Origin: Nitrospira sp.
GTDB lineage: Bacteria; Nitrospirota; Nitrospiria; Nitrospirales; Nitrospiraceae
Direction: 5' to 3'
DNA length: 49,716 bases
NCBI GenBank assembly: GCA_016873495.1
Contig: VGXC01000025.1
Coordinates: 1-49,716, forward strand
Both the position numbers and the translations under genes were made by a program. Below are positions 7,144 to 39,951 of this stretch, in pieces (the stretch's first letter is position 1; the number at the start of each line of letters is the position of its first letter). The notes beneath the pieces were generated by a model. That model searched no databases, was not told the DNA's origin, and saw only the letters and a list, made by a program, of their open reading frames with translations.

Positions 7144-7797
7144 CTAAAAAACCGTACGTTTCCGTTCGACGACTTTTTTGATCTTCTTCTGCCCGAACCA
7201 GGATTTCACGTTATTTTCCAGATCGATCATCTCCAAATCCACCTGATAGAAAATCGCGCGAACGCCCTCGGATTCGTCCACGATCGTGGAGATATTGCCT
7301 TTCAGCATAAAGTCGGCGCCGATCTCCTTGCCCGGCGATTTTTGCGTGTCCTCGCGGGCCTGCTCGGCTTGTGCGCGCCGTTCCTCGCGGAGTTCCTCCC
7401 GTTCGGCCTTGCCGGCCACGAACGTGACTTTTTGCGAATTCGTCAGCTCGCGCGCCAGGTCGGCCACGAAGGTCTGGACGTTGATGTGCTCGCTGCTCCG
7501 ATTGAGGATGGCGCCGACGACGACCACGGGCTGCCGCCCTTTCGCGCTCCGGTACTTGCCGAGCCAGGGGTTGTCCAGGGCTTCCTTGACCATGGACTCG
7601 GCCACGAGCCGGGAGTCGGTGTCGTTCCAGCGGCCGCTGAAGTCGGTGACGACGCCCGTATCCACGCGGGTGACCCTCGTGGATTCGCCGCAGCCGGTTA
7701 TTGCGACGGCTACAATGACGGCAAGGACCGCCGCCGCGTGAATCGTGAATCGTGAATGGTAAATGGTGAAGTTGACGGAGATCGATCCATTACTCAT
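7144..7797 (-). CDS. lpoB: Penicillin-binding protein activator LpoB-like lipoprotein
   Basis: LpoB is an outer-membrane lipoprotein that reaches through the peptidoglycan and activates a class A penicillin-binding protein. The mature part matches the family: T-D-F-S-G-R-W-N-D-T-D, S-M-V-K-E-A-L-D-N-P-W, V-V-V-V-G-A-I-L-N-R-S-S-E-H-I, G-A-D-F-M-L-K-G-N-I and a Q-V-D-L-E-M-I-D-L-E near the end. The lipobox is A-I-T-G-C. The ATG is placed by GAGGAG 9 nt upstream. The first 28 residues before the hydrophobic core are unusual: part of them (F-T-I-Y-H, F-T-I-H) is encoded by a tandem 7-nt repeat that runs into the gene. It is the middle gene of the lipoprotein operon. Confidence 0.85.
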   Translation of the reverse strand: MSNGSISVNFTIYHSRFTIHAAAVLAVIVAVAITGCGESTRVTRVDTGVVTDFSGRWNDTDSRLVAESMVKEALDNPWLGKYRSAKGRQPVVVVGAILNRSSEHINVQTFVADLARELTNSQKVTFVAGKAEREELREERRAQAEQAREDTQKSPGKEIGADFMLKGNISTIVDESEGVRAIFYQVDLEMIDLENNVKSWFGQKKIKKVVERKRTVF

Positions 7798-7837
7798 TAC
7801 GCTGCACTCCTCACGCGTCACCCCTCACGCCTCACCC
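7738..7837. repeat. Two opposed heptamer arrays around the lpoB start codon
   Basis: Five units in exact 7-nt phase (type GTGAATC, variants GTGAATG, GTAAATG and GTGAAGT) occupy 7738-7772, inside the lpoB coding region. Four more units (type CTCACGC, variants GTCACCC and CTCACCC), also in exact phase, occupy 7810-7837 upstream of it. The two arrays are in opposite orientation, so in lpoB mRNA CGTGA-type units can pair with TCACG-type units. The start codon and its GAGGAG site lie between them. Confidence 0.75.
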
Positions 7838-7843
7838 TGACAG

Positions 7844-8410
7844 CTACTTGCTGTCCCGCTTGGTTTCTTCTTTTTCCAGCTTCTCGAAGAGCTTCTCTCC
7901 GTTTTGGCGGACATAATCACGGACCTGTGGGGAGAGTTCCTTGCTCTGGGCCAACGTCTCCTGCATGGACTTCAGGTCCATCTTGACGAGCACATAGTAG
8001 GTCAGGCTGTCCTCGTCCTTGTACCGGTCTACCGGCATGACGCCGGACAGGGTGCCGGAGGAGAAGGTCTTCACGGCCCGCTCGACGTTCTGTTCTTCCG
8101 TAGACTTGCTGAAATCCGCCGCGGTGGTGGAGGCGGCGTAGTTTCTCATCAGATAGGCCGTGTACGTCTGGAACCGCTTGGTGATCTCCGCGCGGGCGTT
8201 GTTTTCAGCCGCGTCCCAGGCCAAGGGCTCGTTGCGGACGCCCACGACCGAGCCGACCCCATAGATCTGCTTGGAATCCTTCTCGTTGTAGGCTGCGGAG
8301 CCTTTCTTCACCCAGGCGGGCGGGCCGCCGCAAGCCGAAAGCGAAACCAGCAAGGCCAGCGCCAGACCGCGGCGGAGCCACTGTGTCGGCACATTCGTGT
8401 TCAATCTCAT
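7844..8410 (-). CDS. LPP20-family lipoprotein
   Basis: The start ATG has AGGAGG 6-7 nt upstream. The signal ends in the lipobox L-S-A-C (V-S-L-S-A-C). The mature protein begins G-G-P-P-A-W-V, then I-Y-G-V-G-S-V and A-W-D-A-A-E-N-N-A-R-A-E-I-T-K-R-F, the pattern of LPP20-type lipoproteins, and ends in a charged helix. At 188 residues it is half as long as the relative at 4319-5452. It is the first gene of the operon that continues with lpoB, the TPR lipoprotein and the larger LPP20-like protein. The family's function is unknown; the company suggests envelope maintenance. Confidence 0.85.
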   Translation of the reverse strand: MRLNTNVPTQWLRRGLALALLVSLSACGGPPAWVKKGSAAYNEKDSKQIYGVGSVVGVRNEPLAWDAAENNARAEITKRFQTYTAYLMRNYAASTTAADFSKSTEEQNVERAVKTFSSGTLSGVMPVDRYKDEDSLTYYVLVKMDLKSMQETLAQSKELSPQVRDYVRQNGEKLFEKLEKEETKRDSK

Positions 8411-8670: not shown

Positions 8671-8841
8671 GTGGCTGATGTCAAAATCGAAGATGGGATC
8701 ATTAAGATCAAGGATCTGGATGTGATGGACCCCAAGGCGGCGGCGGTGCTGGCCGAATATCCGGAAGTGCGCTGGGCTGAAATCACCCGGCGGGCGCTCA
8801 AGATCGGTCTTGGGTATATGAAGGGCGGAGCGCAGGACTAG
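8671..8841 (+). CDS. Small hypothetical protein (56 aa)
   Basis: The start is a GTG at 8671 with GGAGG about 7 nt upstream; the open frame further 5' has no such signal and an unlikely composition. The product is a short soluble protein with a beta hairpin-like beginning (V-K-I-E-D-G-I-I-K-I-K-D-L-D-V) followed by an amphipathic helix (W-A-E-I-T-R-R-A-L-K-I-G-L-G-Y). No family is recognised. It is isolated on the plus strand between two minus-strand genes, and its stop codon is followed at once by a heptamer repeat array. Confidence 0.55.
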   Translation: MADVKIEDGIIKIKDLDVMDPKAAAVLAEYPEVRWAEITRRALKIGLGYMKGGAQD

Positions 8842-8925
8842 GCGAGTGGTGAGTTGTGAATGGTGAATTGGGGCCGAGGCTCACGTCAGCGTAACAATCT
8901 CCACTCTCAACTCATCACGGTTCAC
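8842..8925. repeat. Inverted heptamer arrays between convergent genes
   Basis: Four phased 7-nt units (GCGAGTG, GTGAGTT, GTGAATG, GTGAATT) fill 8842-8869. Three opposed units (TCTCAAC, TCATCAC, GGTTCAC) fill 8905-8925. TGAGTTG on one side is the exact complement of CAACTCA on the other. The site separates the 56-aa gene from the pseudo-caspase gene, whose TGA stop (8922-8924) is part of the last unit. Confidence 0.7.
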
Positions 8926-10307
8926 TGTTTGGTGGGCGTTTCGGCTGTGTCGGCCTTGCCTAGATACTCCCGCACGCGGTTTTCGTTTCCGCCTGTCTCC
9001 AGGTACCGTTGGTAGGACTCGACGGCTTTCGGTCTGTTCTTCAAATCATCGGCGTAGAGATCGCCGAGCGATAGATGGACGTCCGAGTAGCCCGGATTGA
9101 CGACGAGGGCTTGGAGAAACGCCTTTTCCGCGTCCTTGTACCGGCCTTTTTTCTGTAGCACGAGCCCAAGCGTGTAGTAGGAGTCCGGGTTGGTCGGCGC
9201 ATGCTTGACCGCCAGTTCTCCGGCCGTCAGGGCTTCATCCAGCTTGTTCAGGCGGTCAAGGTAGAGGTAGCTCTTCAGGATGTAGGCGTCGCCGAAGGCG
9301 GGGCTGTAACGGGTGGCCTTCTCCAGCCGCTCGAGCGCTTCCTCCAGCGATTTTTCTTTCTGCTGCTGGAGGAGGCTGAAGGCCTTGTCGTATTCTTCCT
9401 TGGCGGCGGCGGTTCGTTCGGCTTCCGTCCTGGGCTCGGGGCCGGCCCGGTAGGCGCTCAGTTTCCCTTCGACCAACACCGTGTCTCCCTCTCCGTCGAG
9501 GCGGGCGAATTGGGGCTGTTGGGTGCCGCCGCTGAGCCGGCTGACCTGCTTGGCGGTGTAGGCTCCAATCTCACTGGCCATGATCCAGCCGTTCTGGTTC
9601 TCGTCCGCGGCGCCCCGCAATCCGGCGAGGAATGCCGTGACGAACGTACCCTGCCCGTCCTTCTTGGTCAGTGCGCCTCCCTGGAGGGCGGCGCTCAGGA
9701 CTTGCACGGCCCTTTTGTCCGTGTCTTCTTCCGGCGAGAGGCGGCCTTCCAGCGACAGGGTCTGGGGCGGCGTGACGTCCCATCCGGACACGGCGGCGTC
9801 CAACACGAATAGCACGTGTTTGGCCATGACGCGGCGGGAGAATTCCTTCAAATGATCCATGGTCACGGCCTTGGAGACGTTGGCCGGTTGTGCGTCCCAG
9901 GGCACCAGATAGCCGATGTCCTTGTTGTGCATGTCCTGGCTGGCGCCGGCGTGGCCGGCGAAGAAGATCACGACCCGGTCGTGGCGTCCGACCTTGCGGG
10001 GCAGGTGCTCGTTGAGGATGAAGTGCATGCGCTTGGAGCTGGCGTCTTTGTTGTAGATTTCCAGCACCTCTTGAAAACCGAGTTTGCGGAAGGCATCGGC
10101 GACCGCCTTTCCGTCCTCGACGGCTCCGTCCAGCTTTGGAGCCACCAGGTAATCGTTGATGCCGATCACGACGGCCCAGGACTTGTAATACAACCCTTCC
10201 GGGCGGCCCAGTTGGGCGCTCGCGGCCGGAATGAGCGACAGGAAGCAGGCCAAGGCGAGGAGGCCGGTATGGCGGAGGTTAAGGCCTCGTTGATGAGAGC
10301 AGCCCAT
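8922..10307 (-). CDS. Exported caspase-fold protein with TPRs, catalytic Cys missing
   Basis: Residues 1-31 are a signal peptide ending A-A-S-A. Residues about 40-270 are a peptidase C14 (caspase) domain: V-V-I-G-I-N-D-Y, then F-F-A-G-H with the catalytic His at H119. The second catalytic motif, normally D-A-C-x-S-G, reads D-A-A-V-S-G, so the nucleophilic Cys is Ala at residue 172. The C-terminal part (about 300-450) consists of TPR repeats (Y-Y-T-L-G-L-V-L-Q-K-K-G-R-Y-K-D-A-E). The protein is therefore probably a non-proteolytic binding scaffold in the periplasm. It has its own promoter, divergent from acs. Confidence 0.88.
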   Translation of the reverse strand: MGCSHQRGLNLRHTGLLALACFLSLIPAASAQLGRPEGLYYKSWAVVIGINDYLVAPKLDGAVEDGKAVADAFRKLGFQEVLEIYNKDASSKRMHFILNEHLPRKVGRHDRVVIFFAGHAGASQDMHNKDIGYLVPWDAQPANVSKAVTMDHLKEFSRRVMAKHVLFVLDAAVSGWDVTPPQTLSLEGRLSPEEDTDKRAVQVLSAALQGGALTKKDGQGTFVTAFLAGLRGAADENQNGWIMASEIGAYTAKQVSRLSGGTQQPQFARLDGEGDTVLVEGKLSAYRAGPEPRTEAERTAAAKEEYDKAFSLLQQQKEKSLEEALERLEKATRYSPAFGDAYILKSYLYLDRLNKLDEALTAGELAVKHAPTNPDSYYTLGLVLQKKGRYKDAEKAFLQALVVNPGYSDVHLSLGDLYADDLKNRPKAVESYQRYLETGGNENRVREYLGKADTAETPTKQ

Positions 10308-12425: not shown

Positions 12426-12908
12426 ATGCCAGCTCATGTAAGAAGTTTGTACAGGGCGGTTGCCGCGGCCGGGATCGTGACGTTGCTCTGTGCCAGTGCC
12501 ATGCCCTTTGATGTCTACGGAGCCGAAGAGAAGAAGAAGGAGACCACCGTCAAGAAGGCTGCCCCGCCGAGAGCCGACCGGAGCGGCACCGCGCACGTCT
12601 CCAGCACCAAAGCCTCCGGGGCCGGGACCGTCGCCAAGGCGCAAGCCTGCTTCGGCAATACGCCCAAAATCGAGACGGTGAAGCCGGACGAGGGCAAAGC
12701 CGGAGACACCGTTACCATCACGGGCGCGAGCTTCGGAGCCGCCGGCTGCCTGACGGCCGTGTCGTTCGGTCCGGGGGGCGAAGCCAAGTTTTCGCATACG
12801 AGTGACACCACGGTGACGGCGACCGTGCCGGAGGGACACAAGGGCATTCGGTTGCTGACGGTCACGACGGCGTCCGGTGAGGATACAAAGCCGTTTCTCG
12901 TGAAGTAG
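12426..12908 (+). CDS. Exported IPT/TIG-domain protein
   Basis: A strong AGGAGG precedes the ATG by about 6 nt. Residues 1-32 are a signal peptide ending near V-Y-G-A. Residues 33-75 are a Lys-, Pro- and Ala-rich linker. The rest is one immunoglobulin-like IPT/TIG domain (V-K-P-D-E-G-K-A-G-D-T-V-T-I-T-G-A-S-F-G, then V-T-A-T-V-P-E-G and L-L-T-V-T-T-A-S-G), a fold used for binding at the cell surface or in the periplasm. Two Cys in the mature part could form a disulfide. The ligand is unknown. A heptamer repeat hairpin follows the stop codon. Confidence 0.85.
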   Translation: MPAHVRSLYRAVAAAGIVTLLCASAMPFDVYGAEEKKKETTVKKAAPPRADRSGTAHVSSTKASGAGTVAKAQACFGNTPKIETVKPDEGKAGDTVTITGASFGAAGCLTAVSFGPGGEAKFSHTSDTTVTATVPEGHKGIRLLTVTTASGEDTKPFLVK

Positions 12909-12924
12909 TTCTCAGGCCTCGGTT

Positions 12925-12977
12925 TTCAGTGGTCAGTCATCAGTGTACCTTCGGGAACTGATGGCTGATAACTGATC
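12925..12977. repeat. Inverted heptamer arrays, strong hairpin between convergent genes
   Basis: Units TTCAGTG, GTCAGTC and ATCAGTG (12925-12945) and opposed units ACTGATG, GCTGATA and ACTGATC (12957-12977) are each in exact 7-nt phase. CAGTCATCAGT (12934-12944) pairs with ACTGATGGCTG (12957-12967) at 10 of 11 positions around a 12-nt loop. It lies between the convergent IPT/TIG and ribE genes, where a hairpin could stop transcription from both sides. Confidence 0.7.
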
Positions 12978-12991
12978 GCGGTTGACTGCTT

Positions 12992-38894: not shown

Positions 38895-39866
38895 TCAGCT
38901 GATCCGCGTGAGGCGGCTCAACGAGTCGAAGATCGACCGAATTTGCGCGATGCCGGGGATCGGCGGCGCCAGTGGACTTGGAACTTTGCCCTTCAACAGC
39001 ATGCGGAGCCCGAGCGGCACCACGCGGAGCAGGCGGCGGAAATTGAAGCCGACCACGTGTAACGGCATGAGGGCTTCGTTCAGGCGCCCTCCCAGCCGGA
39101 TCAGGCCTATGAAGCCGGTGATGTGCCGCGCTCCCCCCGAACGGGTCAGCCCCGCCTCGATGGCCGCTCGACGCAAGCGGATGATGGCCTCCATGGGTTG
39201 GACGTCTTTCGGACAGACCTCGACGCAGAAATTACAGCGGGTACAGTCCCAGATGCCGTCCGGTTGCTCCAGGAAGCGGAGGCGCGTGTGCTTGGCGGCC
39301 ACCGGCTCGCGTGGATCGGCTAGGAACCGGTCCGCTTTGGCCAGAGCCGCCGGGCCGAGAAATCCTCGGGACACTTCGTGCGAGGTGCAGGCGGCGACGC
39401 AGGCCCCGCACATGATGCAGGCATCCACATTGTGGAACTGGTAGCGGTCCCGCGAGAGCGTCATCGGGCGGGCCGGCTGGTCCGACTGACCGTGGGGCGA
39501 TGCGGACAGCCAGGGAGTCACGGCCCGGACGTTGTCCCAGAAGGCCGTCATGTCGACGACGAGGTCTTTGATGACCGGAAAGTTACGCAGGGGGGCCACG
39601 GTGACTTGCCTGTGACGCTCGAGTTCTTTGCGGATGGACGTCCGGCAGGCCAGCTTCTCGGATCCGTTGATGTCCATCGCACAGGAACCGCAGATGGCGG
39701 AACGGCAGGAATAGCGAAGGGCCAGCGACCCGTCCTGTTCATGCTGGATCCGGATCAGGGCTTCCAGGACCGTCATGCCGCGGCCGACATCCAACCGATA
39801 GGGCTCATCGTGCGGGTGCGGGTCGGTTTCGGGATTGAACCGGGTAATCGTGAAGGTCAGGCGCAT
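38895..39866 (-). CDS. sdhB: Succinate dehydrogenase/fumarate reductase iron-sulfur subunit
   Basis: The subunit passes electrons between the flavin subunit and the quinone side. The N-terminal ferredoxin domain has the [2Fe-2S] ligands in C-R-S-A-I-C-G-S-C-A and a later L-A-C. The C-terminal domain has C-I-M-C-G-A-C-V-A-A-C and C-T-R-C-N-F-C-V-E-V-C-P for the [4Fe-4S]/[3Fe-4S] clusters. At 323 residues it is about 80 longer than a standard SdhB, with a basic C-terminal extension, as in enzymes that pair with an SdhE CCG subunit. A matching CCG protein is encoded at 34028-34960. No flavin subunit is in the window. Confidence 0.92.
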   Translation of the reverse strand: MRLTFTITRFNPETDPHPHDEPYRLDVGRGMTVLEALIRIQHEQDGSLALRYSCRSAICGSCAMDINGSEKLACRTSIRKELERHRQVTVAPLRNFPVIKDLVVDMTAFWDNVRAVTPWLSASPHGQSDQPARPMTLSRDRYQFHNVDACIMCGACVAACTSHEVSRGFLGPAALAKADRFLADPREPVAAKHTRLRFLEQPDGIWDCTRCNFCVEVCPKDVQPMEAIIRLRRAAIEAGLTRSGGARHITGFIGLIRLGGRLNEALMPLHVVGFNFRRLLRVVPLGLRMLLKGKVPSPLAPPIPGIAQIRSIFDSLSRLTRIS

Positions 39867-39876
39867 GGAAGATGGT

Positions 39877-39951
39877 TGTCAGTTTTCAGCACACAATCAA
39901 TAGTGCTATCCGAAACACTGAGGACTGACAACTGAATACTGTTGACTCAAT
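39877..39951. repeat. Inverted heptamer arrays between same-strand genes
   Basis: Units TGTCAGT and TTTCAGC (39877-39890) face five phased units (ACTGAGG, ACTGACA, ACTGAAT, ACTGTTG, ACTCAAT; 39917-39951). GTTGTCAGT (39875-39883) is the exact complement of ACTGACAAC (39924-39932), and the pairing continues imperfectly to 15 bp. The last unit contains the TGA stop (39947-39949) of the M24 peptidase gene. Confidence 0.7.

Follow-up and report, generated by a model that had tools for sequence, protein, structure and literature searches.

The start of an LpoB-like lipoprotein gene of Nitrospira sp. is flanked by two inverted arrays of 7-nt repeats, one of which is translated. This arrangement raises the question of whether the arrays form a regulatory switch for the gene, or whether they are one copy of something more widespread. 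An earlier note on this DNA favored the former, proposing that copy-number changes of the unit might turn a peptidoglycan-synthesis activator on and off. The window, that is the whole stretch of 49,716 nucleotides analyzed here (contig VGXC01000025.1), contains the following features at and near this junction.

7144–7797, minus strand: lpoB-like lipoprotein gene (PF13036, E 5.9e-40; 217 aa from the ATG)
7736–7770, minus strand: opposed (3′) arm, five heptamers, TTCACCA TTTACCA TTCACGA TTCACGA TTCACGC
7787–7835, minus strand: leader (5′) arm, seven heptamers in one 7-nt register, GTGAGGC GTGAGGG GTGACGC GTGAGGA GTGCAGC GTAATGA GTAATGG
7795–7797, minus strand: ATG start codon of lpoB, within the sixth leader heptamer (GTAATGA)
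7807–7812, minus strand: Shine-Dalgarno-like GAGGAG, 9 nt 5′ of the ATG, built from the fourth and fifth leader heptamers
7844–8410, minus strand: LPP20-family lipoprotein gene (Pfam match), upstream of lpoB
8840–8925, no strand assigned: second inverted heptamer element, between convergent genes at 8671–8841 (plus) and 8922–10307 (minus)

The assignment of the gene to lpoB, made earlier from the letters alone, is confirmed by the PF13036 match, which reaches 137 bits against a cut-off of 22.3, and the product carries the lipobox ITGC (AITGC). The LPP20–lpoB gene pair is kept in 108 relatives. The minus-strand gene at 8922–10307, which adjoins the lipoprotein cluster, encodes a TPR-repeat protein with a caspase domain (PF00656).

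In the 5′ to 3′ direction of the minus strand, the junction comprises the seven leader heptamers (7835–7787), 16 other bases and the five opposed heptamers (7770–7736). The first four leader units are good and the final three are degenerate; this arm holds TGA/TAA stops together with the Shine-Dalgarno sequence and the ATG of lpoB. The opposed arm lies entirely within the lpoB open reading frame and reads N-FTIYHSRFTIH-A in the N-region of the signal peptide. These observations agree with the count and coordinates of nine units given previously (five coding and four good leader units), with their opposed sense (GTGA-type leader units against TTCAC-type coding units) and with the description of the coding arm as a long signal-peptide N-region. 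The start codon had been placed between the two arrays. The arrays do surround the start, but GAGGAG (7812–7807) and the ATG (7797–7795) are located inside the leader array itself. In the window allele, the stretch from the coding array to the lipobox contains no ATG, GTG or TTG; any LpoB that is made must therefore include the translated array. Both arrays are detected by TRF (7737–7770, score 47; 7805–7837, score 52), and the lag-7 score of the LPP20–lpoB gap, 19/21, is equalled by none of 200 shuffles. A known structured RNA was rejected as the identity of the arrays, because an Rfam search of the window gave no family match above the gathering score.

The earlier note treated the arrays as a feature of lpoB, whereas some 60 elements of this kind, of which they form one, are spread over the gene gaps in 846 kb of the genome. 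At a threshold of at least 16/21 matches at lag 7, these 846 kb contain 76 period-7 arrays against 0–5 in Markov nulls; they are sampled stretches, partly picked to cover contigs with matches to a TGAR-NNN pattern, so the array density is somewhat inflated. At the stricter threshold of 17/21, there are 40 arrays at lag 7 versus 0–4 at lags 5, 6 and 8–11. In addition, the four-unit TGAR-NNN pattern matches the genome 41 times, versus once for the reversed control. By simple codon-usage gene calls the sample is 88% coding; 47 of the 76 arrays fall wholly between genes and 11 partly so, many of them about 15 nt or less from a gene end. Of the tandem gaps of at least 60 nt, 11% contain an array; the figures for convergent and divergent gaps of that size are 15% and 2.4%.

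The arrays are typically paired and inverted. A second array is located within 120 nt for 45 of the 76, and the arms are of opposite purine sense in 26 of 30 separate elements. Compared as inverted units, the arms of one element match at 5.27 of 7 positions, versus 4.23 ± 0.16 for swapped partners, a value as high being reached in 0 of 2000 shuffles. Moreover, array-bearing gaps fold better than other gaps (mean z −2.60 versus −0.82, p 2e-6). The unit itself varies within the genome and includes GTGAAxx, ATGAACG, TCAGCxx, GCAGAAx and GGCAAGx. A universal stop-codon role of the unit, which holds for the lpoB arm, was rejected as a general explanation because GCAGAAx and GGCAAGx units contain no in-phase TGA. 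Across the phylum, TGAA-type arrays are patchy, with any match in 82 of 198 genomes.

Several further repeats were observed in passing. Weaker inverted period-7 elements of TCAGxxx / CTGAxxx units occupy gene gaps at 12908–12991 and 39866–39946 of the window, and a congener carries a stronger inverted period-7 element at each of these gaps. Long, near-perfect TGAAGCG arrays of 6–12 units with no obvious opposed arm are present elsewhere in the genome (G000) at C13:30298–30396, C4:73689–73767 and C2:129249–129304; the TGA of the last seems to form the stop codon of the neighboring gene. These three are the strongest candidates for genuine variation in copy number. A dispersed stem-loop repeat of another kind, about 127 bp long, GGATGNTCAAAA..GTACTG..GTACGTTGAGGGG..TTTTCAACATCC, has a predicted fold of about −65 kcal/mol and is located at 2793–2888 of the window, at C6:48006–48145 of the same genome and at about 15 other places, with dozens of copies per genome across the genus at roughly 71–90% identity; it has no Rfam match at gathering score. 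Kinship between this repeat and the heptamer arrays was rejected, since its sequence differs from theirs and just one copy in 21 has an array within 300 nt.

Among the 108 LPP20–lpoB junctions, clear period-7 arrays, with no shuffle out of 200 as good, are found in all four congeners and in four members of other genera (L009, L012, L019 and L021), and are absent from Nitrospira moscoviensis and most others. These arrays have other units (TTCACCA, TCAGCAC, TCAGGAC and TCGGCAC). Borderline lag-7 scores in L017, L094, L130 and L136 resemble low-complexity or short matches, and six entries (L081, L082, L091, L093, L103 and L107) are duplicate junction sequences from another collection and thus not independent. 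The fact that several genera have arrays at the lpoB start might point to a local role.

Comparison of orthologous gaps reveals that the place is kept while the unit is exchanged. Based on three contigs of this genome and three congeners, several of the genomes being draft MAGs and the gene calls home-made, the congener gap has an array in 22 of 36 cases where the own gap has one, versus 6 of 100 where it has none (OR 25, p 5e-11). The consensus unit is identical in 5 of 26 orthologous array pairs at a threshold of 15/21, with 1.4 expected by random pairing, and in 12 of the 26 at most four of seven positions are alike. For example, the unit at C7:86759 is GTGATGx, and the orthologous gap holds TCAGCxx in G003 and TATGGCx in G001 and G002. 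The window gap at 8840–8925 is occupied by heptamer arrays in this genome and in three congeners, with units differing among the four species. Some congener gaps orthologous to array gaps of this genome contain inverted repeats of period 6, 8 or 9; in G003, such arrays were seen at the counterparts of C6:51428, C6:58745, C7:84955 and C7:54544.

We consider it probable that the lpoB arrays are the two arms of one copy of a dispersed, fast-turnover class of inverted heptamer elements in the gene gaps of the genus, and that this element overran the lpoB start. An alternative is the phase-variable switch, in which adding or removing one heptamer of the coding arm would shift the lpoB frame and toggle the peptidoglycan-synthase activator. 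Seven is not a multiple of three, and the N-terminus, the site of the arrays, is a common place for contingency repeats. In simulations of the window allele, a change of −7 leaves no start and a change of +7 leaves a sole ATG lacking a Shine-Dalgarno sequence; a copy-number change would consequently break lpoB, as the earlier note had predicted. Comparison across relatives does show that unit sequence and number differ, but all eight array-bearing loci (one genome per species) have an open frame from the start codon into the lipobox. With no off-frame allele among these eight, nothing supports switching. The coding arm, whose four to five units are imperfect and in the window include just one pair of identical neighbors, is a poor slippage substrate; the same array class is present in gene gaps genome-wide; and the authors who described similar repeats in Xanthomonas and Nostoc judged phase variation unlikely (PMC4692102). 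We therefore regard a phase switch as very improbable; the arrays do not have the look of a switch built to turn lpoB on and off, and the earlier interpretation, though supported in part, mostly fails. The related idea of a frame buffer, in which leader starts in all frames make a change of ±7 harmless, was also rejected, since 100 control loci are at least as robust as the array loci. Still more doubtful is that the encoded peptide was selected as a functional extended N-region of LpoB. The FTIH peptide recurs in L001–L003 and arrays recur at the lpoB start in several genera, yet the peptides of other genera are unrelated (HSALSTS, RHSALGTS), most orthologues have no repeat-encoded N-region, and the peptide follows from the repeat type.

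Structure-based control of translation, in which the arms would pair in the mRNA and mask the Shine-Dalgarno sequence and ATG in a hairpin or thermometer-like manner, appears improbable, if less so than a phase switch. The two arms have a complementary GTGA/TCAC core, array gaps fold well as a rule, and the lpoB gaps of three congeners have z of −2.5 to −3.3, with the Shine-Dalgarno sequence or start in or beside the predicted stem. The fold that had been proposed for the mRNA is thus predicted in these congeners, but the window copy is ordinary: its z values of −0.71 and −0.42 against dinucleotide shuffles make its hairpin no better than shuffles. In other genera the predicted fold is absent or weak (z −1.4 to +1.9); L019 (+1.9) and L021 (+1.2), both with arrays at lpoB, fold worse than shuffles, and fold strength does not differ significantly between array and non-array lpoB loci (p 0.15). 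Another explanation is that each element is a tiny mobile palindrome, with the heptamers as its internal structure, which enters gene gaps as a unit and of which one copy landed on the lpoB start. It would account for empty or near-empty orthologous gaps, observed in G002 at C6:41760 and in G003 at C7:34777 and C7:81845, and for the different elements that the same gap often holds in sister species. Against it, the elements have no common core, their units differ, periods 6, 8 and 9 also occur, arm lengths vary and target duplication is not established. The own genome (G000) gives no match to the RAYT family (PF01797), by which a RAYT/REP origin was rejected for this genome. We judge insertion of such a palindrome unlikely, though less so than translational control.

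The preferred reading, a dispersed inverted heptamer element that overran the lpoB start, can also explain the layout of the junction. Because 7 equals 1 modulo 3, a run of three TGA (or TAA) units places a stop in every frame, while the complementary TCA units stay open. A downstream gene could therefore extend upstream through a TCA arm but would have to start near the end of a TGA arm. At lpoB, the leader arm, with its TGA/TAA-bearing units, stops and ATG/GTG starts, would supply the Shine-Dalgarno sequence and the start codon, as GTGAGGA and ATGA units happen to offer such sequences. On the coding strand, the TCA-type units of the opposed arm contain no stops, and this arm would be read as extra signal-peptide N-region. 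With stops in the leader arm and neither stops nor starts in the opposed arm, the start codon is bound to lie near the leader-arm end; the stop and start content of the arms thus fixes the lpoB layout, and a regulatory design is not needed as an explanation. If the arrays do affect lpoB translation, for instance where an RNA stem covers the start site in some species, that effect would be incidental.

How such arrays arise is a more tentative matter. They may form and change by 7-nt slippage together with arm-to-arm copying through hairpins, or alternatively be rewritten through replacement by small mobile palindromes, and they are presumably tolerated because they are sited in transcribed, non-promoter gaps. 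One possibility, which we put forward with some reserve, is that a mutational or enzymatic process in the genus builds inverted arrays at fixed gaps, strongly favoring units of 7 nt, and rewrites these units while the arms stay complementary. What is inherited or selected would then be position and palindrome rather than sequence, for example because the hairpins serve in mRNA processing or insulation, with occasional coding capture as at lpoB.

As an lpoB switch, the element probably does not matter. The lpoB case illustrates how a gene can take its ribosome-binding site, its start codon and a portion of its signal peptide from such an array. The genome-wide pattern provides a workable system for a long-standing question, why repeats of 7 nt abound in certain bacteria: since syntenic gaps of sister species keep the place and the hairpin and exchange the heptamer, mutational origin and selection for a hairpin become separable.

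In the openly accessible literature, we found no description of heptamer repeats of this kind in Nitrospira. Heterocystous cyanobacteria carry STRR heptamers, and small dispersed repeats are reportedly often embedded in heptamer arrays (Mazel 1990; Elhai 2008); these are likewise tandem heptamers dispersed in gaps, in another phylum and with other unit sequences. Like phase-variable contingency loci, the lpoB locus has, close to the N-terminal end of the coding region for an envelope lipoprotein, a short repeat whose unit length is not a multiple of 3. It is unlike them in its few, imperfect units, in the in-frame alleles of its relatives and in belonging to a genome-wide rather than a one-gene class. 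REP/BIME elements mobilized by RAYT are also short intergenic palindromes between co-directional genes, whereas the elements here possess no conserved core of 20–40 nt and no RAYT gene was found in the genome.

The heptamer arrays of Xanthomonas and Nostoc (GGGAATC and GGGGA(C/T)T, about four units) are dispersed and intergenic, and those of Xanthomonas form many inverted pairs, 70–75 per genome (PMC4692102). Most of them have the same neighboring genes in two species but vary greatly in length and sequence, and they are under-represented between divergent genes (PMC4692102). The Nitrospira arrays share their intergenic location, their inverted pairs, their scarcity in divergent gaps and their same-gene sites with variable sequence; those genomes, however, have a single G-rich, G4-forming motif each, whereas here several unit types occur and are exchanged at the same gap. 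The TAACTGA repeats of marine Beggiatoaceae and cyanobacteria are direct repeats next to start codons (169 direct sets, 1 indirect), usually without a Shine-Dalgarno sequence (PMC4679880). As pointed out by MacGregor, their forward orientation has stops in all frames and ends open reading frames, while the reverse is translatable, mainly at protein ends (PMC4679880). Our arrays are likewise heptamers beside a start codon, with one orientation stop-bearing and the other translatable. In contrast to that one fixed and nearly always direct heptamer, the units here are variable (GTGAxxx/TTCACxx and others) and inverted, with the Shine-Dalgarno sequence inside the array. The published relatives of the Nitrospira arrays are thus the heptamer repeats of Xanthomonas, Nostoc and Beggiatoaceae, and what is new here is the replacement of units at fixed gaps and the translation of one arm into a signal peptide.
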